In this document: positions 8,961 through 30,846 of the stretch, piece after piece | How positions within the stretch are numbered: the first letter of the stretch is position 1 | Layout: each line of letters opens with the position of its first letter | From: Gammaproteobacteria bacterium | GTDB lineage: Bacteria > Pseudomonadota > Gammaproteobacteria > Thiohalomonadales > Thiohalomonadaceae | Length of the DNA stretch: 64,000 nt | Reading direction: 5' to 3' | Assembly (NCBI GenBank): GCA_026196275.1 | Contig: JAPHTQ010000002.1 | Coordinates: 1-64,000 of the forward strand | Position numbers and translations under genes: made by a program | The notes under the pieces: generated by a model | The model's database searches: none | Told to the model about the DNA's origin: nothing | Seen by the model: only the letters and a program-made list of their open reading frames with translations

Positions 8961-9525
8961 AGATCTCTGCCACCTTGAGGAAAAACGGCTGCATGCCGTA
9001 GGGCATGGCCGAGAGTGTCTGGCCGTTGATGTAGGGAAGAATGCGGTCACTGACGGCAATGCCGGCAAGTATGCCCGCCTCCACATCGCCTTCAAAGGGT
9101 GAGAAGCTGATCACGTTATGGCGCAATGAGTAATCGATAATGGTGTCGAGCGCCTCTCCCGTGCGCTGTGCGATAAACAGCGCGAATGGTGGTGGATAGG
9201 TGTTTTGTCTGAGCTCCCGAACAGAGACGATGGTCGTGCGCAGCGGGTGTCCTTTGATGTTGTCCAGGTGTTGCAGCCGCTGCGCCAGTTGCCGGGCATA
9301 GAGCTCGTTATCCTGGAAAATGATATGCACCTCCAGGGTGTTTCCGGCGGGTAGGTTGCCCAGATTCTCGCTGGCGGCAATCACCGAGGGGAAAACGCGT
9401 AATCCGACATTGATCAGGCGCTCCTCCTGCGTGTCGGCGACGGCGCCTAGCGAGGTCAGCAGCAGGATGCCTGCGCCCATCCATCGGACAAGCCTTGTTT
9501 TGTATTTGAATGCGATCCCTTGCAT
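8950..9525 (-). CDS. Periplasmic YfiR/DUF4154-like protein
   Basis: 191-residue secreted protein: signal peptide about 1-30 (WMGAGILLLTSLGAVAD), then a domain with PSVIAASENL near the start, SFSPFEGDVEAGILAGIAVSDRI in the middle and a C-terminal PFFLKVAEIY. This arrangement resembles DUF4154 (YfiR) proteins, which bind periplasmic signals and act on a membrane partner. It sits between a TonB-dependent receptor (12-base gap) and the hybrid kinase (11-base overlap). It is therefore likely to pass a signal from the outer membrane to the kinase. The family assignment is by motif only. Confidence 0.7.
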   Translation of the reverse strand: MQGIAFKYKTRLVRWMGAGILLLTSLGAVADTQEERLINVGLRVFPSVIAASENLGNLPAGNTLEVHIIFQDNELYARQLAQRLQHLDNIKGHPLRTTIVSVRELRQNTYPPPFALFIAQRTGEALDTIIDYSLRHNVISFSPFEGDVEAGILAGIAVSDRILPYINGQTLSAMPYGMQPFFLKVAEIYVR

Positions 9526-9537
9526 ACGTCCGTTGTC

Positions 9538-11613
9538 CTAGAGTTGGTAGCTCATGCCGGCCCACCAGAGGCGTCCCTGTCTTGGCCTGTCTTCAGGATA
9601 GGTCTCCATCGGGGCCGGGTAAACGACATCGCTGTCGAGAATATTTTTGATGCCGATGCGAAGACTGTATTTCGACGGCGGGGTGTAGTTGTAGGTTGCA
9701 TCGAGTGTGCTGTATCCGTCCAACATGGAACGGGTGTCGTCGATACTGCGGTGGATATCACCGGTGTAACGGTACTGCAGGTTGATGTGTGAGCTGCCGT
9801 CGGGGCGATAGTTGAGTCCAAGGTTGGCCAGCCAGTCGCTGGAGCCGCTTACCGATTCGCCGGTGTTATTGTCTTCCGTCTGCAGGTAGGAGATATTGCC
9901 GTTGACGTCGAGATTGTACTCGAAGCGGTGTTCCCACTCCGCCTCGATGCCGTAGAGCACCGAATCGTCGGTGTTGACGTAACCAAGGGTCGTAGCGGTC
10001 TCGACGAAGGCGATAGGCTTTTTTAGCGTGGAGTGGAACAGGGTCAAGCGAAGGTCGTTGTCGATCCCCTTGAACAGATAGCCCGCTTCATAGGATTCGA
10101 GTTTTGCCGGATCGATGGTGTCGACTGCACCGCCGATCTCCTGAAAGGTGGGCGGGCGGAAGGCGCGCGCATACTGTGCCTTGAAGATGTGCTGGCGGCC
10201 GAGTCGATAGACTGCCGCTAGACGTGGGGTGGTGCTGCCGCCGATATCGCTGTAGTGATCATGACGTAATCCCGCGGTAATGGTTAATGACTCCGACGGG
10301 CGGTATTCGTCCTGTAGCGTGAGGCTGTTGATACGGCGGGATTTGCCCGGTGTAATCAGACTGTAGTGTTCCGTGTAGAGGCCTTTCTGTCCTGACTCGA
10401 CGGTGTTCTTTTTTACCTCAATGTAGCTGAACTCATAGGCGAGAAACGGGGTGTGGCCGCCTGTCTCCTGCCAGCCGATTTCGAAGCCGGCGGTGGAGCG
10501 CTCCTCAATGTGCCGTTTGTCGGTCAGGATGGGTTGCGAGGTGTCCCAGCTATAGTAGTCTGTGTCGCAGAAATCCTCATCGCCGTCGGAGAGGGGATAG
10601 CTATTGCCTGGAGTACAGGTGAAAAGCCCCTCCTTATCCTCCTTGATGCGTAGCCAAGAGGTGTGAATGCGCGCCTCCTTGACAGCACCGCCGGAGAGTC
10701 CCTTTTCCAGCCTGACGTTCTTGTAGCGCTGACTGTCGATGATGCTACCCTCGTCAGGTGGCAGGTATTCGTTGATGCCGAAGTGGTCGCCGTTGCCCCC
10801 TTCCAGTAGTTGGATGCTCGCCTTGTAGCCGTTCTTTTCGATATTGAGGAAGAGGGTGCTGTTCTCCTGTGCCTCGTTGCTAGGGCCGGGGGCATTGGAG
10901 TATTGCGGGATACCCTTGCTGTAAAGGGTGTCCTCGTCGACCCATACCTCCTGTCCATCCTCCCGCCAGTGGCCGAGATTGAGATCAATCGCCAGGTCAC
11001 TGTCCGGCGCGCGGTAGCTGTAGATGCCGCCGCCGCCGCGGTGTTGGCCATCGGCGGCGCGCAGGAAAAGGCGCTTTTTATCACTGTGGGTGATGATATT
11101 GATCACACCGGTGTAGGCAAACTCGCCGTAGAGCGCGGAACCGGGCCCGCGGATCACCTCGATGCGATCCACCTGTTCGATGGGGATGTTGAGGGCAGGG
11201 TTGGCGTTTGCAATCTCCGCCGAGTTCATCGAGTTGCCGTTGAGCAGGATTTTAACATTGCCCGAGGCGTAGGTTCTGCCGATGCCGCGCACCACCACCT
11301 GCTTTCTGCCGGTGCTCTCGATGGAGAGATCGATCCCCGGCACCTTCGCCAGCGCCTCCCAAACGGTGCGCGAGCCGCTACTCTCCACCTCGCTACCGTG
11401 CAGGACGGTTACCATGCCGGGGACATAGTCGGCATTCAGGCGGGTTTTGGTGGCGATGGTGGTCTGCTCCTCCAGCAGCTCCAGAAGCTGCTGGTACTCA
11501 TCCAGTTGATCTGCCGGAAGTGGTTCCATGCTTTCAGCCACTGCGTTACCGGTCCCGGCAAGCAGTAATGGAAACAGCAGGGTGAACATGGGGCGCATGT
11601 TGTTTTTTTTCAT
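9538..11613 (-). CDS. TonB-dependent outer-membrane receptor of a sensory operon
   Basis: 691-residue receptor with signal peptide (about 1-27), a plug domain (TVWEALAKVPGIDLS, KILLNGNSMNS, IEVIRGPGSALYGEFAYTGVINII) and a large barrel ending in LWWAGMSYQL. It heads the minus-strand operon with the YfiR-like protein and the hybrid kinase. The ligand is not evident. Proximity to the B12 genes allows a corrinoid, but no riboswitch precedes this gene and the kinase partners suggest a sensing role. A transport-only role for a siderophore or metal complex is the alternative. Confidence 0.9.
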   Translation of the reverse strand: MKKNNMRPMFTLLFPLLLAGTGNAVAESMEPLPADQLDEYQQLLELLEEQTTIATKTRLNADYVPGMVTVLHGSEVESSGSRTVWEALAKVPGIDLSIESTGRKQVVVRGIGRTYASGNVKILLNGNSMNSAEIANANPALNIPIEQVDRIEVIRGPGSALYGEFAYTGVINIITHSDKKRLFLRAADGQHRGGGGIYSYRAPDSDLAIDLNLGHWREDGQEVWVDEDTLYSKGIPQYSNAPGPSNEAQENSTLFLNIEKNGYKASIQLLEGGNGDHFGINEYLPPDEGSIIDSQRYKNVRLEKGLSGGAVKEARIHTSWLRIKEDKEGLFTCTPGNSYPLSDGDEDFCDTDYYSWDTSQPILTDKRHIEERSTAGFEIGWQETGGHTPFLAYEFSYIEVKKNTVESGQKGLYTEHYSLITPGKSRRINSLTLQDEYRPSESLTITAGLRHDHYSDIGGSTTPRLAAVYRLGRQHIFKAQYARAFRPPTFQEIGGAVDTIDPAKLESYEAGYLFKGIDNDLRLTLFHSTLKKPIAFVETATTLGYVNTDDSVLYGIEAEWEHRFEYNLDVNGNISYLQTEDNNTGESVSGSSDWLANLGLNYRPDGSSHINLQYRYTGDIHRSIDDTRSMLDGYSTLDATYNYTPPSKYSLRIGIKNILDSDVVYPAPMETYPEDRPRQGRLWWAGMSYQL

Positions 11614-17232: not shown

Positions 17233-18081
17233 CTATTCCCCCGCACTGTAGAGGGCGAGCAGCTCACCGGCCTTGTTACGGCTCTTGCCATGGCAACTGA
17301 TGTAGCGCTGTACGGAGAAGTGCTTTATCCGGGCACTGTGGTAGATCTCCCGTGCGAAGGCGGTGTCATGGTTGGAGATCAGCACCGTCACTCCTCGTTT
17401 GGCGGCCTTTTCCGACAATCTTGCCAGCTCTTTCTGCTGCTCCAGATCGAAGCCGCCGGCGCTGTAACTGGTGAAGTTGGCGGAGAGGCTGAGTGGTACA
17501 TAGGGCGGGTCACAGTAGATGACATCGCCGTCGCGTGATTGACGGATGGTCGTGGCAAAGTCCTGATGGCGGAAACGGGCATGCTGGGCGCGGTGGTGAA
17601 AGGCCAGCATCTCCCGTTTGGGGAAGTAGGGTCGCTTGTAGCGGCCGAAGGGTACATTGAAACCGCCACTGGCGTTGTAGCGGCACAGGCCGTTGTAACC
17701 GTGCCGGTTGAGGTAGATGAACAGTGCGGCGCGCCGCTCCGGCTCTGCGCAGTGGTTGAACTCATCACGCAGTTCGTAGTAGCGCTCGGCGCAGTTGTTG
17801 GCTTCAACGAACAGGCTTTGTGCCACTTCGATAAAACCCGCCCCCTTATCTTTCAGCAGGTTGTACAGGTCGATCAGGTCCCGGTTACTGTCGCACAGCA
17901 GATAGCGTTCATAGTCGGTGTTGAGAAATACTGCGCCGGAGCCGGCGAAGGGTTCCACCAGACGCTGTCCCGGCGGCAGGCTCTTCCGCACCTTGTCGAG
18001 GATGCGGAACTTATTGCCCGCCCATTTGAGAAACGGGCGAGCGGGGGTGATTATCGACTGGACACGCTTTACCTTTGCCAT
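17233..18081 (-). CDS. dam: DNA adenine methyltransferase, Dam (D12) type
   Basis: Methylates adenine, in this family normally in GATC. The 282-residue protein has the N-terminal AdoMet motif FLKWAGNK, the FAGSGAVF motif, and the catalytic DPPYVPLS, then SNHDT and a C-terminal segment typical of Dam. The start ATG at 18081 shares a base with the argA TGA (TGATG), so translation is coupled to argA. There is no adjacent restriction gene, which favours a housekeeping Dam over a restriction-modification partner. Confidence 0.92.
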   Translation of the reverse strand: MAKVKRVQSIITPARPFLKWAGNKFRILDKVRKSLPPGQRLVEPFAGSGAVFLNTDYERYLLCDSNRDLIDLYNLLKDKGAGFIEVAQSLFVEANNCAERYYELRDEFNHCAEPERRAALFIYLNRHGYNGLCRYNASGGFNVPFGRYKRPYFPKREMLAFHHRAQHARFRHQDFATTIRQSRDGDVIYCDPPYVPLSLSANFTSYSAGGFDLEQQKELARLSEKAAKRGVTVLISNHDTAFAREIYHSARIKHFSVQRYISCHGKSRNKAGELLALYSAGE

Positions 18082-19403
18082 CAAAGCGACTTGATGAAAA
18101 CCTTGGAACGGCGCTGGTAGTTGTACAGCTCCTGGCGTCTCATCGGCAGCTCCTTGAGACTGGCGGCATTGAAGCCGCGCTCCTGGAACCAGTGTGCAGT
18201 GCGGGTGGTCAGGACAAACAGGCGGTTGATGCCCATGCCCTTTGCCTTGCGCTCGATGTATTCCAGCAGGTCGTCGCCGCGCCCCTGCTTGCGATAATCC
18301 GGATGGACCGCGAGACAGGCCAGCTCACCGCACTCGTCCTCGCTGAAGGGGTAGAGGGCGCCACAGGCGATAATGGTGCCGTCGCGTTCTATGACGGTGA
18401 AGTGGTCGATCTCCACCTCCAGCCGCTCACGTTCGCGCCGCACCAGCACCCCATCCTGCTCCAGCGGTTCAATCAGTTCCAGCACCCCGCCGACATCATC
18501 GATGGTCGCCTGGCGGATATCCTCGAAGGTCTCTCCGCTTATCAGGGTACCGATGCCGTCGCGGGTAAACAGCTCCATCAGCAGTGAGCCGTCCACGTGA
18601 CGGCTGAGCAGGTGCGACCGGTTTACCCCGTTGCTGCAGGCGAAGATGGCGCTGAACAGACTCTTGGCGATCGCCTCTGGGAGTTCCTGCTGATCCTCCA
18701 GATAACTCTCCGATTCCTTGAGATTGAGCTCGCGCACCAGCGTGCCGTCATCCAGCTGCAGACCATTGCCGTCGATGAGGTAGATCAGTTTGTCCGCCTG
18801 GAGCTGGATCGCAGCAGCGGTGGCCACATCCTCGGCACTCAGATTGAAGACTTCTCCGGTGGGAGAGAAGCCGATGGGCGAGAGCAGCACCAGGGCGCCT
18901 TCGCCGAGCTGGCGGTGGATCGCCGCGGTGTCGATGCGCCGCACCTCGCCGGTGTGCAGGTAGTCGACCCCTTCGCGTATTCCCAGTGGCTGGGCGGTAA
19001 CGAAGTTACCGGAGGTGACCCGGATGTCGGCGCCTGCCATCGGCGAATTGGCCAACCCCATGGAGAGTAGCGCCTCGATCTCCACCCGGACCGCACCGGT
19101 CGCCTCCTTGACACAGGCCAGTGCGGCCGTATCGGTGATGCGCAGGCCGTTGACGTATTGCATCTCCACGCCACGCTCATTGAGCCGCTGCTCAATCTGC
19201 GGGCGTGCACCATGCACCAGCACCAGGCGTACGCCCAGGCTATTGAGCAGTGCGAGGTCGTGGACCAGGCTGGAAAACTGCTCCTCGGCGATCATCTCGC
19301 CGCCGAAGGCGACGACGAAAGTGCGCCCGCGAAAGGCGTTGATATAGGGCGAGGAGTCGCGGAACCAGCGTACAAAGGTCTGTGGATCGAGGCTCGGGTC
19401 CAT
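18081..19403 (-). CDS. argA: N-acetylglutamate synthase
   Basis: First step of arginine synthesis: acetyl-CoA plus glutamate gives N-acetylglutamate. The 440-residue protein has an amino-acid-kinase fold (about 1-290, FVVAFGGEMI, LVLVHGARPQIE, MAGADIRVTSG) that binds arginine for feedback control, and a C-terminal GNAT domain with ACLAVHPDYRKQGRGDDLL. Length and domain order match the proteobacterial ArgA. It is coupled to dam downstream. argE is separated from it by about 80 bases upstream on the same strand. Confidence 0.95.
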   Translation of the reverse strand: MDPSLDPQTFVRWFRDSSPYINAFRGRTFVVAFGGEMIAEEQFSSLVHDLALLNSLGVRLVLVHGARPQIEQRLNERGVEMQYVNGLRITDTAALACVKEATGAVRVEIEALLSMGLANSPMAGADIRVTSGNFVTAQPLGIREGVDYLHTGEVRRIDTAAIHRQLGEGALVLLSPIGFSPTGEVFNLSAEDVATAAAIQLQADKLIYLIDGNGLQLDDGTLVRELNLKESESYLEDQQELPEAIAKSLFSAIFACSNGVNRSHLLSRHVDGSLLMELFTRDGIGTLISGETFEDIRQATIDDVGGVLELIEPLEQDGVLVRRERERLEVEIDHFTVIERDGTIIACGALYPFSEDECGELACLAVHPDYRKQGRGDDLLEYIERKAKGMGINRLFVLTTRTAHWFQERGFNAASLKELPMRRQELYNYQRRSKVFIKSL

Positions 19404-19482
19404 GCTGTCGTCAGGCTGTGGAAGTATTTAAAGGGCTATTGTCCGTTTCTCGCCGTGTTATGGCAAGCAAAGGGCGTATTCG

Positions 19483-20637
19483 TTAAAGACAGAACCGGGT
19501 GATGAGCTGTTTCAGCAGTTCGACGGTGGGGTTGAGACGGTCCATTGCGAGGTATTCGTCGGGCTGGTGGGCCTGCGCGATGTCGCCGGGACCGAGGATC
19601 AGGGTCTCGATGCCCATCTCGGTTAGATAGGGACCCTCGGTGCAGAAGGCGACCGCCTCGCTGTCGTGGCCGGTGAGCGCTTCCGCCGCCTCGACGATGG
19701 CAGAGGTGGTCGGAGTGTGCATGGCAGCCGTTCCGTGGAACAGCGGGGCCAGCTCCCAACCGAGTTCACTCTCGCCCAGTAGTCGATGTAGCCGGTCGTT
19801 GAGGGTCTCGCGTAGCGCCTCGAGCTCCATTCCCGGGATCGGGCGCAGGTCGAAATGCAGCTCGCAGTGGCCGCAGATTCGATTGGGGTTGTCGCCACCG
19901 TGGATGTGGCCCAGGTTCAGGGTCGGTACCGGTACCTTGAATTGCGGAGCGTGGTGTGTCGCCTGCAGCTGCTCGCGCCACGCGAGCAGATCACCGATCA
20001 CCTTGTGCATTCCCTCCAGCGCACTGACCCCAAGCGAGGGATCGCTGGAGTGGCCCGAACGGCCGGTAAGGCGCACCGCCTCCATCATGATCCCCTTGTG
20101 GGCATTGACCGGGCGCAAGCCGGTGGGCTCGCCGATCACCGCATAACGGGCGCGTGGCCGCCCCAGTTCCACCAGCGCCTGGGCGCCCTCCATGGAACTC
20201 TCCTCGTCGGCAGTGGCGAGGATGATCAGTGGCTGCTGCAGCTGTCCTTTATCGAACGACCTGGCCGCCTCAATGGCCAGAGCGAAGAAGCCCTTCATGT
20301 CACAGGTACCAAGACCATAGAGGCGGTTGTGTTTCTCTGTCAGGTGAAACGGGTCGAAATTCCAGCGTCCCTCGTCGTAGGGTACGGTATCGGTATGGCC
20401 TGCGAGCACCAGACCACCGGACCCCTGGCCCAGGGTGGCGATGAGGTTGGCCTTGTGGGGCTGGCTGGGCAGCGGCACGATCTCGATGTGGAAGCCCAAC
20501 GGCTCGAGCCAGCCGGCCAACAGCTCGATCACTTCGCGGTTGCTGCTGTCGAACTCCGGGCTGACGCTGCTCATCGACGGCGCGGCGATGAGTGCGCCGA
20601 GCATGGCGCGCAGGGAGGGTAGGGTGTGTCTGGTCAT
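19483..20637 (-). CDS. argE: Acetylornithine deacetylase
   Basis: Zinc-dependent M20-family hydrolase that removes acetate from N-acetylornithine, giving ornithine for ArgF. The 384-residue protein has the metal-binding LAGHTDTVPYDEGRW, the catalytic TADEESSMEGA, the GEPTGLRPVNAHKG segment, the dimer-domain GRSGHSSDPSLGVSALE and the C-terminal LGPGDIAQAHQPDEYL. With argA next door and argD-argF about 27 kb away, this is the linear acetyl-ornithine route rather than the ArgJ cycle, unless argJ lies elsewhere. Confidence 0.94.
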   Translation of the reverse strand: MTRHTLPSLRAMLGALIAAPSMSSVSPEFDSSNREVIELLAGWLEPLGFHIEIVPLPSQPHKANLIATLGQGSGGLVLAGHTDTVPYDEGRWNFDPFHLTEKHNRLYGLGTCDMKGFFALAIEAARSFDKGQLQQPLIILATADEESSMEGAQALVELGRPRARYAVIGEPTGLRPVNAHKGIMMEAVRLTGRSGHSSDPSLGVSALEGMHKVIGDLLAWREQLQATHHAPQFKVPVPTLNLGHIHGGDNPNRICGHCELHFDLRPIPGMELEALRETLNDRLHRLLGESELGWELAPLFHGTAAMHTPTTSAIVEAAEALTGHDSEAVAFCTEGPYLTEMGIETLILGPGDIAQAHQPDEYLAMDRLNPTVELLKQLITRFCL

Positions 20638-20798
20638 GGTAGTGATTCTGGACCCGATGGCGGTGGTGAGGCAAGAGGTAACGATAGGTGCGAGGCTGGA
20701 GGATTGCGCCGCTTATTCTGCACGGGAAGTATGGCGCGGGAGGTGGCCTGGTGCTACATTGCGCGCGATCACCACTCGCCCTCAAAGGAGGGTGCCCC

Positions 20799-21905
20799 AT
20801 GCTACGCAAGGCTACAATCAGGGACCTCGATGCGCTGGTCGCGCTCGAAAACCGAAGTTTTGAGACCGATCGGCTCTCCCGCCGCAGCTTCCGTCACCTG
20901 TTGACCAAGGCCAATGCCGTGACCCTCATCGCCGAGGAGCAGGGGGCGCTGGCCGGCTATGCCACGGTGCTGTTCAATGCCGGCACCTCCCTGGCCCGTC
21001 TCTACTCTATTGCGGTGGATGAGAGGTTCAAGGGGCACGGTCTCGGCCGTGAGCTGGTTTCCGCAGCCGAGCAGGCAGCCCTGGATGGCGAGTGCGTGGT
21101 GCTGCGCCTGGAGGTACGTCGTGACAACGAGGCTTCGCTGGCGCTATTTCGCCGACTCGGCTATCGCGAGTTCGATACCCTGCGTGACTACTATGAGGAT
21201 CACATGGAGGCGCTGCGTTTCGAGAAGGCGCTGGCGCCTCACCTGAGCCCCGCTATCGCCCGTGTCCCTTACTACCGTCAGACCCTCGATTTTACCTGCG
21301 GCCCGGCCTCGTTGTTGATGGCCATGCACAGCCTCGCCCCCGATATTGCTTTGCAGCGCACCCTGGAGATCCAGCTGTGGCGTGAGTCGACCACGGTGTT
21401 CATGACCTCCGGGCACGGCGGCTGCGGCCCGCACGGCATGGCGCTGGCTGCCTGGCATCGGGGCTTTGCGGTGGAGATGTTTCTCAGCGAGGCGGGGGCG
21501 CTGTTCATCGACTCGGTGCGTAGCGAAGAGAAGAAGGAGGTGATGACTCTGGTGCAGCAGCAGTTCGCGCAGGAGGTGGCGGAGGTGGGCATCCCGGTGC
21601 ACTACCGGCAGCTGACGCTGGAGGAGATGCGCAAGGGTTTCGATCGCGGTGGTATCCCGCTGGTGCTGATCAGCTCCTGGCGCATCTACCGGGAGAAGTT
21701 TCCCCACTGGGTGGTGGTGACCGGTTTCGATGAGCGCTATGTCTATGTCCATGACCCGTACGTGGATGAGGAGAAGGGTAAGAGTGAAACCGATTGTATG
21801 AACATGCCGATCCTGCAGAAGGACTTTGCGCGTATGGCACGCTACGGCAGGTCCGGGCTGCGCGCGGCGTTGATTATCTATAACCGTAACGGAGAGCTGC
21901 GGTGA
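20799..21905 (+). CDS. GNAT acetyltransferase fused to a C39-like cysteine peptidase
   Basis: 368-residue two-domain protein. Residues 1-about 145 form a RimI-like GNAT domain (YSIAVDERFKGHGLGREL, RRDNEASLALFRRLGYREF). Residues about 155-368 are a C39/papain-like domain with Cys in LDFTCGPASLL (C167), His in PHWVVVTGF (H303) and Asp in VHDPYVD (D319), so the triad looks complete. A strong AAGGAGG precedes the ATG at 20799; an upstream in-frame GTG is rejected. The stop overlaps the next gene as GTGA. No ABC-transporter domain is attached, unlike bacteriocin-processing C39 proteins. Substrate unknown. Confidence 0.9.
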   Translation: MLRKATIRDLDALVALENRSFETDRLSRRSFRHLLTKANAVTLIAEEQGALAGYATVLFNAGTSLARLYSIAVDERFKGHGLGRELVSAAEQAALDGECVVLRLEVRRDNEASLALFRRLGYREFDTLRDYYEDHMEALRFEKALAPHLSPAIARVPYYRQTLDFTCGPASLLMAMHSLAPDIALQRTLEIQLWRESTTVFMTSGHGGCGPHGMALAAWHRGFAVEMFLSEAGALFIDSVRSEEKKEVMTLVQQQFAQEVAEVGIPVHYRQLTLEEMRKGFDRGGIPLVLISSWRIYREKFPHWVVVTGFDERYVYVHDPYVDEEKGKSETDCMNMPILQKDFARMARYGRSGLRAALIIYNRNGELR

Positions 21906-23377
21906 GTCTACAGATCGTTGTCGTCGAAAATTTTGCGGACTGGAAAGTCGAAGGGGTGGAGGCCGAGGTGGTTCACGTGGATGACTACCTCACGGGTAAG
22001 GACTATTTTCGGCAGAAAAATATCCAGGTGGTCAATCTCTGTCGCAGCTACCGTTACCTGAGTGTGGGTTACTACTGCTCTTTGCTGGCCGAAGCCAGAG
22101 GACACCGCGCCTTGCCGTCGGTGAAGACGATGCTCGATCTGAGTCGCAAGTCGATGTATCTGCTCGATGCTGAAAACCTGGAGCAGCAGATCCAGAAGGC
22201 ATTCAGAAAACATCTGCAACAGCAGGAGGGGGATGGTGGTTTCGAGGTGGATGTCTATTTCGGCCGCTGCAACGTTGAGGCACTGGCCGCTTTGGCGAGA
22301 CAGATCTTCGAGGTGTTTCCCTGTCCGCTGCTGCGGGTCGGTTTTCAGCGTCAGGGAAAGTGGCGGATCGCGGCGATCAAGCCGTTGCCGGTGCAGCGAC
22401 TGGATGGGGTGCAACGTGACCACCTTGCCGCAGCCTTTGCGCACTATCGTAAAAAACGCTGGCGGGCACCAAAAGGGCGCGCCGCGTCCCGCTATGATAT
22501 CGCTATTCTGCACGACCCCAATGATCCGCAGCCGCCCTCGAACAGTCGCGCGCTGAACCAGTTCATCAAGGCGGGGCGGACACTGGGTGTGGATGTGGAG
22601 TTGATTGAGCGGCGCGACTATGCGCGCCTGGCCGAGTACGATGCGCTCTTTATCCGCGATACCACACGCATCGATCACTACACCTATCGCTTCGCCAAAA
22701 AGGCCGAAAGCGAGGAGATGGTGGTGCTCGATGATCCGCGCTCGATCCTGCTGTGCACCAACAAGGTCTACCTGGCGGAGCTGCTGCGGGCCAAAAAAGT
22801 GCCGACGCCGAAGACGGTGATCGTCGGCAAGGGGGACCTCAGCGCGGCGCAACAGCAGATCGGTTTTCCCATGGTCCTCAAGGTGCCGGACGGCTCATTC
22901 TCTCAGGGGGTGTTCAAGGTGGAGGACGCGGCACAGATGCGGGAGGTGACCGCACGGCTGTTCCGTGAGTCGGAGCTGATTCTGGCGCAGGAGTATCTCT
23001 ATACCGAATTTGACTGGCGGGTGGGGATCCTCAATCGCCAGCCGCTGTTTGTCAGCCAGTACTTTATGTCGAAAAAGCACTGGCAGATCGTTAAATACGA
23101 TGGCAAGGGCGGTTTTAGTGAAGGGGGATTCCGCACCCTTGCGGTGGAGCAGGCACCGGCGGAGGTGGTCTCGGTGGCGCTGAAGGCGGCCAACCTGATC
23201 GGTGACGGGCTTTATGGTGTGGATCTGAAACAGAATAGCGATGGTGTCTACGTCATCGAGGTAAACGACAATCCCAACCTCGATGCCGGGGTGGAGGATG
23301 TGGTGCTGAAAGAGGAGCTCTATGCACAGGTTATGGCAGAGTTTGTGCGCCGGCTCGATGTGAAACGCAGACGCTGA
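21902..23377 (+). CDS. RimK-like ATP-grasp ligase with RLAN N-terminal domain
   Basis: 491-residue protein. The N-terminal part (about 1-150, NLCRSYRYLSVGYYCSLLAEARGH) matches the RimK-like ATP-grasp N-terminal (RLAN) domain. The C-terminal half (about 270-480) is an ATP-grasp domain with PTPKTVIV, GFPMVLKVPDGSFSQGV, AQEYLYTEFDWRVG and the metal-binding YVIEVNDNPNLDAG. Such ligases form amide bonds with ATP, often adding amino acids to a C terminus or side chain. GTG start at 21902 overlaps the previous stop, so the GNAT-peptidase and this ligase are made together. Substrate not known. Confidence 0.9.
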   Translation: MSLQIVVVENFADWKVEGVEAEVVHVDDYLTGKDYFRQKNIQVVNLCRSYRYLSVGYYCSLLAEARGHRALPSVKTMLDLSRKSMYLLDAENLEQQIQKAFRKHLQQQEGDGGFEVDVYFGRCNVEALAALARQIFEVFPCPLLRVGFQRQGKWRIAAIKPLPVQRLDGVQRDHLAAAFAHYRKKRWRAPKGRAASRYDIAILHDPNDPQPPSNSRALNQFIKAGRTLGVDVELIERRDYARLAEYDALFIRDTTRIDHYTYRFAKKAESEEMVVLDDPRSILLCTNKVYLAELLRAKKVPTPKTVIVGKGDLSAAQQQIGFPMVLKVPDGSFSQGVFKVEDAAQMREVTARLFRESELILAQEYLYTEFDWRVGILNRQPLFVSQYFMSKKHWQIVKYDGKGGFSEGGFRTLAVEQAPAEVVSVALKAANLIGDGLYGVDLKQNSDGVYVIEVNDNPNLDAGVEDVVLKEELYAQVMAEFVRRLDVKRRR

Positions 23378-29562: not shown

Positions 29563-30846
29563 ATGAATAAATTCTCCCACTGGCGCGCCATAGCGGCTCT
29601 TTTCTTGCTGCTGACCGTCTCAGCCACGGCTGCGATGGGCAGTGAAGCGGGTGAAATACGCTGGTTTGACAACGATGCGCAGGGAGAGCCTACGCTGGAT
29701 CTCTATTTTTTCTGGTCCAACAACTGTCCCCATTGTCAGGATGCCAAGCCGGTGGTGGAGCGGCTTGCCGCCGAATACCGCTGGCTGAGACTGCATTCGT
29801 TCGAGGTGCTGGGGAGTCGGGAGAACATGCAGCGCTACAGCCGGATGGCGGGGTTGCTGGGTAGGGAGGCGAGATCGGTGCCGGCCTTTCTCTTCTGCGG
29901 CCAGATGGAGGTGGGTTTCGATGGCCGCGGAGAGATGCTGCGGCAGGCCCTGGGGGAGTGTTATCAGGCCGTCCGCAACGGGGAGGATATGCCGGTGTCA
30001 GCCCCCGGGGAGGTGGTGCTTCCGGTGTTCGGCAAGGTGGACGGGGATTCACTGTTTCTGGTTACGGTGGTGATCGCGGCACTGGATGCCTTTAACCCCT
30101 GCGCCTTCTTTGTACTGCTGTTTCTGCTCAGCCTGCTGGTGAATACCCGCAGCCGGCGGCGGATGTTGTTTATCGGCGGGGTGTTTGTCTTCTTCTCCGG
30201 CGCCTTCTATTTCCTGTTTATGGCCGCCTGGCTCAACCTGTTTCTACTCGCGGGTATGCAGCAGCTGTTTACCCTTGCCGCCGGGGCGGTAGCGGTGGTG
30301 ATGGCGTTTATCAATATCAAGGATTTCTTTCTGCCCGGGCGCGGTCTTTCGCTCTCCATTCCCGAGGCAAAAAAGCCGGGCCTGTTCCAGCGCATGCGTG
30401 GCCTGCTGCAGGCGGATAACCTGCCGGCGCTTACCTTGGGGACCGTCACTCTGGCGGTGGCGGCCAACAGCTACGAGCTGCTGTGTACCTCGGGTCTGCC
30501 GATGGTCTATACCCGGGTGCTGACCCTGGAGGGGCTGACCAGCACCGAGTATTACCTCTATCTGCTGTTGTACAATTTGATTTATGTGATCCCGCTGCTC
30601 ACTATTGTACTGCTGTTCACCATCACTCTCGGTCGGCGCAAACTGCAGCCCGAGGAGGGGCGTCTGCTCAAGCTGCTCTCGGGTACCATGATGCTCGGGC
30701 TGGGGGCAGGACTGTTGTTCGCCCCACAGCTGCTCGGTTCGGTTATTGCCGTACTGATGGTGATCCTGGTGGCGATCAGCATCACGCTGGTGGGTGCCTG
30801 GTGGCTGCGTTCAGTCAACAATAGAGGGGGGAGGGGCGGTAGTTAG
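29563..30846 (+). CDS. Thioredoxin-like domain fused to a DsbD/CcdA-type membrane domain
   Basis: 427-residue protein. Signal or anchor at 1-26, then a periplasmic thioredoxin-like domain with CPHC (FFWSNNCPHCQDAKPVVERL) and a cis-Pro loop SVPAFLFCG. Next comes a polytopic membrane domain (about 165-420). The membrane cysteines sit in DAFNPCAFFVLLFLLSLL and SYELLCTSGLP, the places where DsbD and CcdA have their redox pair. It probably moves reducing power from the cytoplasm to the periplasm or assists cytochrome c or metal-centre assembly. It lies inside the split Pho regulon without an obvious functional link. Confidence 0.82.
   Translation: MNKFSHWRAIAALFLLLTVSATAAMGSEAGEIRWFDNDAQGEPTLDLYFFWSNNCPHCQDAKPVVERLAAEYRWLRLHSFEVLGSRENMQRYSRMAGLLGREARSVPAFLFCGQMEVGFDGRGEMLRQALGECYQAVRNGEDMPVSAPGEVVLPVFGKVDGDSLFLVTVVIAALDAFNPCAFFVLLFLLSLLVNTRSRRRMLFIGGVFVFFSGAFYFLFMAAWLNLFLLAGMQQLFTLAAGAVAVVMAFINIKDFFLPGRGLSLSIPEAKKPGLFQRMRGLLQADNLPALTLGTVTLAVAANSYELLCTSGLPMVYTRVLTLEGLTSTEYYLYLLLYNLIYVIPLLTIVLLFTITLGRRKLQPEEGRLLKLLSGTMMLGLGAGLLFAPQLLGSVIAVLMVILVAISITLVGAWWLRSVNNRGGRGGS

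Follow-up and report, generated by a model that had tools for sequence, protein, structure and literature searches.

A GNAT-C39-like Protein and an RLAN-ATP-grasp Ligase Encoded as an Overlapping Pair Belong to a Widespread, Predicted, Uncharacterized Enzyme System

Gene Organization

The window considered here is the whole 64,000-nt stretch of contig JAPHTQ010000002.1 (GCA_026196275.1), from a Gammaproteobacteria bacterium, in which two overlapping genes encode a GNAT acetyltransferase fused to a C39-like cysteine peptidase domain and an amide ligase of the RLAN-ATP-grasp type (Table 1). The ATG start of the first gene has an AGGAGG-type site upstream, and the GTGA shared by the two reading frames suggests that they are probably translationally coupled. 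A first-pass annotation of this DNA had placed the open reading frames and their overlap exactly as given here. It had also described the pair as fused, which is true of the GNAT and C39-like domains within the first protein; the two genes themselves overlap and are not fused to each other.

The genes argA and argE (18081-20637) are divergent to the pair, and a divergent argE is found at about a dozen loci in several families, perhaps with a regulatory region in common. Downstream of the pair lie ilvD and PhoB/PhoR-type genes. Elsewhere in the window (29563-30846), a 427-residue predicted membrane protein with no Pfam match at 1e-3 has a signal region followed by a thioredoxin-like CPHC stretch.

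Table 1. Coordinates of the gene pair in the window and of DUF155 genes at related loci (named by locus)
Feature	Position	Strand	Evidence or remark
Gene pair	20799-23377		
GNAT-C39-like (DUF3335) fusion protein, 368 aa	20799-21905	+	ORF, SD, Pfam, AlphaFold model
RimI/NatA-like GNAT domain, residues 2-144	20802-21230	+	TIGR01575 (under cut-off), Foldseek, conservation
DUF3335/C39-like papain-fold domain; Q161, C167, H303, D319	21264-21878	+	PF11814, conservation
C167 codon, tgc	21297-21299		By eye
H303 codon, cac	21705-21707		By eye
D319 codon, gac	21753-21755		By eye
GTGA start/stop overlap	21902-21905	+	Sequence; -4 spacing commonest in relatives
RLAN-ATP-grasp amide ligase, 491 aa, GTG start	21902-23377	+	ORF, Pfam, AlphaFold, Foldseek
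RLAN domain	21980-22432	+	PF14401
RimK-like ATP-grasp domain	22760-23287	+	PF08443; 55/55 conserved residues
161-bp intergenic region common to pair and divergent argE	20638-20798		ORF layout; recurs in several families
DUF155, L153	6015-7972		Overlaps GNAT-C39 by 4 bases (coordinates)
DUF155, L204	7779-8567		Directly after RLAN
DUF155, L216	6826-7686		Directly after RLAN
GNAT-C39, DUF2817 and DUF155 in a row, L206	7508-10806		2.1 Mb from RLAN + GNAT in the same genome

Domains and Active Sites

The first protein matches the Pfam families PF00583 (GNAT; E 2e-17) and PF11814 (DUF3335, "Peptidase_C39 like"; E 4e-91, 304 bits). The apparently complete cysteine-peptidase triad read from the sequence in the first pass (C167, H303, D319) is indeed conserved, and the loss among homologues that would have spoken against it is not observed. 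Gln161, the oxyanion residue of the C39-like domain, Cys167, and His303 are present in 40 of 40 DUF3335 fusion homologues, with position 319 an aspartate in 38 and a glutamate in 2, and all four residues are invariant in a set of 31 sequences (that of the window and 30 from named records). In the GNAT domain, Glu105 and Tyr131-Tyr132 are invariant among these 31 and position 117 is tyrosine or phenylalanine in all but one, Glu105 and Tyr/Phe117 being residues of catalytic type; the CoA loop at positions 78-83 (R/Q-x-x-G-x-G/A) is mostly kept.

The AlphaFold model of this protein (m3926949bfba9) has a mean pLDDT of 92, and its best Foldseek matches, which mask the C39 fold in that search, are RimI, Ard1, and NatA. 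These are alpha-amine acetyltransferases. RimI, the S18 alanine N-acetyltransferase, is the GNAT family closest to the domain in both sequence and fold, although the domain falls below the equivalog cut-off for TIGR01575 (E 4e-21, 75.4 bits versus 86.4) and the host genome has a RimI of its own. The C39-like domain shares with the peptidases of bacteriocin ABC transporters and with BtrH the papain-like order of Gln, Cys, His, and Asp, but differs in being fused to a GNAT domain; Pfam finds no ABC transporter domain on the protein. The BtrH N-domain and PCAT are very weak matches (E 0.02-0.06), and PF03412 reaches 15.1 of the 22 bits required. On the lack of a transporter domain and the PF03412 score, identification as a canonical C39 leader peptidase was rejected.

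The second protein was annotated in the first pass as an amide-forming ATP-grasp enzyme, and both Pfam (PF14401 RLAN, E 1e-51, 175 bits; PF08443 RimK, E 2e-11) and fold agree on an RLAN protein with a RimK/LysX-like ligase. Its residues Lys288, Lys327, Arg373, His393-Trp394-Gln395, Asp441, Glu453, and Asn455 are invariant in 55 of 55 sequences and are also kept in a mixed set that includes the GNAT-less clade described below. As these comprise the typical nucleotide and metal residues of ATP-grasp enzymes (Lys288, Lys327, Asp441, Glu453, Asn455) together with a dedicated His-Trp-Gln motif, which is not known from RimK, all variants of the ligase probably catalyze the same ligation. With active-site residues thus conserved in both, the two proteins of the pair look like working enzymes.

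Comparison of the ligase model (AlphaFold, mc67a663ae688; mean pLDDT 87) with known structures, which had been proposed as a check, yields D-Ala-D-Ala ligase, ArgX/LysX, RimK, and the graspetide ligase PsnB among the Foldseek matches. Target-normalized TM scores are highest for LysX/ArgX (up to 0.83) and are 0.73-0.77 for RimK; matches to the ATP-grasp half fill this list and mask the RLAN fold, and no sequence relative of RLAN was found in the Protein Data Bank. The C-terminal half resembles RimK, LysX, and ArgX in fold and in catalytic residues, whereas the RLAN domain is additional and the protein scores below the RimK family cut-offs (TIGR00768, 81.4 of 143.4 bits; NF007764, 28.9 of 331). 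The GSP synthase and CHAP amidase domains of glutathionylspermidine synthetase/amidase were not found by Pfam on either protein. The nearest relative of the ligase (73% identity) comes from a metagenome-assembled genome labeled Sulfuricurvum, probably a binning or naming error, and has no GNAT in the 12.8 kb covered there.

Linkage and Distribution

The pair does not split freely across genomes. Among 274 genomes of the host class, RLAN occurs in 63 and a strong DUF3335 match in 44, of which 43 also have RLAN; among 378 genomes of the host phylum the corresponding numbers are 69, 57, and 56. When the samples are pooled after removal of three genomes common to both, RLAN is present in 96 of 98 DUF3335 genomes, and the two genes lie within about 4 kb of each other in 91, as judged by eye from coordinates. 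Four of the five genomes with both genes and no adjacency are drafts in which the genes fall on different contigs, leaving one (G278) that is truly split. The spacing is tight far beyond chance: at 58 co-directional loci, no more than 20 bp separate the start of the downstream gene from the stop of the upstream one in 46, the two overlap in 22, and -4 bp is the most common spacing.

The system, with complete and conserved enzymes, is widespread in the host class and phylum; the taxa that carry it include Pseudomonas, Xanthomonadales, Azospirillum, and sulfur bacteria. Methanosarcina acetivorans, taken as a control, scores above the cut-off for DUF3335 and has no RLAN.

Core and Accessory Parts

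Comparison of modules across loci separates a core from accessory parts, a division that may be new. Neighborhoods were covered to about 10 kb and rest on simple ORF calls, so that neighbor counts are approximate; a GNAT of this family accompanies RLAN at a distance of up to 4.5 kb at 137 of 156 RLAN loci, fused to C39 in 91 and alone in 46 by our own count. The vicinity of GNAT and RLAN persists after divergent rearrangement and beside second RLAN copies, the stand-alone GNAT arises several times on the ligase tree, and the class-sample genomes that have it contain no DUF3335 anywhere. The hard core of the system is therefore GNAT plus the RLAN ligase, and the C39 domain is not a constant part. 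The grouping of ligating, acetylating, and cleaving activities made in the first pass thus survives as a conserved set and a stable pair, except that the cleaving member is lacking at 46 of the 137 GNAT loci. Many lineages have lost C39, and other amidase-like proteins occur alongside it, which suggests that its role is accessory, in editing or recycling, and that not every system needs it.

A different arrangement is seen at 13 GNAT-less loci, whose ligases form one fully supported clade in which GNAT is found in 0 of 13. Most have a C39-like protein (PF13529), GCS2 (PF04107), and an N-formylglutamate-amidohydrolase-like FGase (PF05013), and the C39-like proteins of the GNAT-fused and GNAT-less types are related (hhalign probability 96%). 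Six of the 156 loci have neither GNAT nor the C39-like set, at least one of them (L196) ending at a contig edge. Three genomes (L201-L203) combine a Pseudomonas-like divergent main locus with a second RLAN ligase and stand-alone GNAT situated away from the GNAT-C39 copy.

That C39 is dispensable also bears on whether the pair is part of a RiPP pathway with its precursor gene at another place in the genome, the pathway being either graspetide-like or based on leader cleavage by C39. Enzymes of the ATP-grasp and C39-like kinds are both known from RiPP pathways, and PsnB is among the fold matches; the C39 protein nevertheless has no transporter domain, and a search of small ORFs (18-110 residues) within 4 kb at 116 loci found no family common to distant lineages, in keeping with the first-pass remark that no precursor peptide is adjacent. 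A RiPP pathway is accordingly extremely improbable, and a graspetide system as such was rejected, no precursor lying within 4 kb.

Recurrent Partners

Beyond the core, two families recur whose links to these genes may be new. DUF155 (PF02582; RMND1/Sif2-Sif3 family) genomes contain RLAN in 20 of 36 cases in the class sample (Fisher 5e-6, phylogeny ignored) and 21 of 37 in the phylum sample (2.5e-8, phylogeny likewise ignored), often within a few kilobases. DUF2817 (PF10994) was counted at 7 loci in the first two sets, with further cases in later ones; several families have it placed between the RLAN and GNAT-C39 genes. Alignment of FGase with DUF2817/M14 by hhalign gave nothing usable, and one shared amidase clan is not claimed. 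In Pseudomonas, a gene for a CorA-type cation transporter starts about 11 bp after the RLAN ligase (L147 and L149, both 9487-10422); CorA is near RLAN at a few other loci as well, and the gene is too common to weigh.

The recurrence of several amidase- or peptidase-like families, together with the divergent argE/argA seen next to the pair in a number of families, might indicate salvage or detoxification of peptides or acyl-amino acids, in which C39, DUF2817, and FGase-like enzymes degrade unusual peptides, GNAT neutralizes amines, and the ligase puts the fragments to new use. Such a role is unlikely, however, as the most constant gene encodes an ATP-consuming ligase rather than a hydrolase, and C39 can be lost while GNAT and the ligase stay.

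Relation to Known Systems

An association of RLAN, GNAT, and papain-like proteins was reportedly predicted by Iyer et al. in 2009, and the Pfam note for RLAN presumably names GNAT, GCS2, and papain-like partners. We know of no biochemistry for RLAN/DUF3335 systems. The present pair shows the same named families in the same arrangement, with RLAN fused to a RimK-like ATP-grasp domain and a GNAT-DUF3335 fusion encoded by the adjacent gene; the DUF155 and DUF2817 partners, the repeated loss of C39, and the split modules differ and may be undescribed. Thus, the pair belongs to a widespread, predicted, and uncharacterized enzyme system. The suggestion in the first pass of an undescribed modification system does not hold: RLAN and DUF3335 each have a family name already, and the DUF3335-GNAT fusion has been noted (PMC10318531, citing Iyer et al. 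2009). A literature search found no experimental work on the pair.

A characterized precedent is synthesis of the N-acetyl dipeptide NAGGN by Ngg, in which acetylation by a GNAT and amide-bond formation are accompanied by a peptidase (PMC8070244). The ngg/asnO/peptidase operon shares the logic of acetyltransferase, amide-bond former, and peptidase, but there acetylation and ligation are carried out by a single polypeptide. The pair is not of that family (TIGR03103, 26.7 bits versus a cut-off of 569), and no TIGR03103 match over the cut-off was found in the host genome. PA1766 and PA1767 were considered as the Pseudomonas aeruginosa version and rejected. Papers describe PA1767 as a predicted cytoplasmic membrane protein, and PA1766, which shares its operon with PA1768, as ATP-grasp or alpha-L-glutamate-ligase-like, a description that does not fit a GNAT-C39 partner.

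Proposed Function

The reading we favor, at a probability of roughly 0.45, is that a small, peptide-like molecule with an amide linkage is made, capped, and edited in the cytosol by a pathway of which the pair is the core. The RLAN-ATP-grasp enzyme would activate a carboxylate as an acyl-phosphate with ATP and magnesium and join it to an amino group, in the manner of LysX, ArgX, and RimK, with RLAN probably holding the acceptor; the RimI-type GNAT would then acetyl-cap the free alpha-amine; and the fused C39-like thiol domain may bind the product or a precursor covalently as an acyl-enzyme, which it would either hydrolyze, as editing or turnover, or pass on as an acyl group. A capped amide-linked product fits because the ligase is invariant and its steadiest partner, a GNAT of alpha-amine type, is swapped in one clade for GCS2, a member of an amine-carboxylate ligase family; absence of GNAT where GCS2 is present is as expected if both cap the amine. 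Editing or turnover fits because the thiol protein and the other amidase-like proteins are the changeable partners. The NAGGN precedent, the lack of a small ORF common to distant lineages within 4 kb, and the canonical RimI and RimK that the host genome has in addition to the pair also speak for this reading. Against this reading, the exclusion between GNAT and GCS2 is one evolutionary event, the GNAT-less variant being one clade; RimI and RimK, the nearest characterized relatives, act on proteins; and none of the partners found constantly in the RLAN neighborhoods of about 10 kb belongs to amino-acid biosynthesis.

Action on proteins is the essence of a somewhat unlikely alternative, in which a second RimI/RimK-like duo attaches an amino acid to a single protein or a small number of proteins and also acetylates them, and C39 removes a terminal residue or reverses the mark. 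The host genome has separate canonical versions of both enzymes, to which alone the GNAT and the ligase are second in score; LysX/ArgX and RimK, among the nearest folds, are established to act on the protein C terminus; and DUF155/RMND1, translation-linked in mitochondria, recurs beside the genes. Yet the scores fall short of the RimI and RimK family cut-offs, no conserved carrier or target gene lies beside the pair, and the GCS2 and FGase-like proteins of the sister clade come from families known to act on small substrates. The tool set for peptide or protein modification envisaged in the first pass is conserved as a set, but chemistry on small acyl-amino acids or peptides, to which GCS2 and FGase-like in the sister clade and the DUF2817 and ArgE neighbors point, is at least as likely.

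The mitochondrial member of the RMND1/DUF155 family has been proposed to tether ribosomes, and the linkage seen here may hint at what this translation-linked family does. A membrane-associated, translation-linked modification system, composed of the RimI/RimK-like duo, a thiol eraser, and a bacterial RMND1/DUF155 member, is decidedly improbable; if it exists, the bacterial linkage would provide a chemical clue to RMND1 function.
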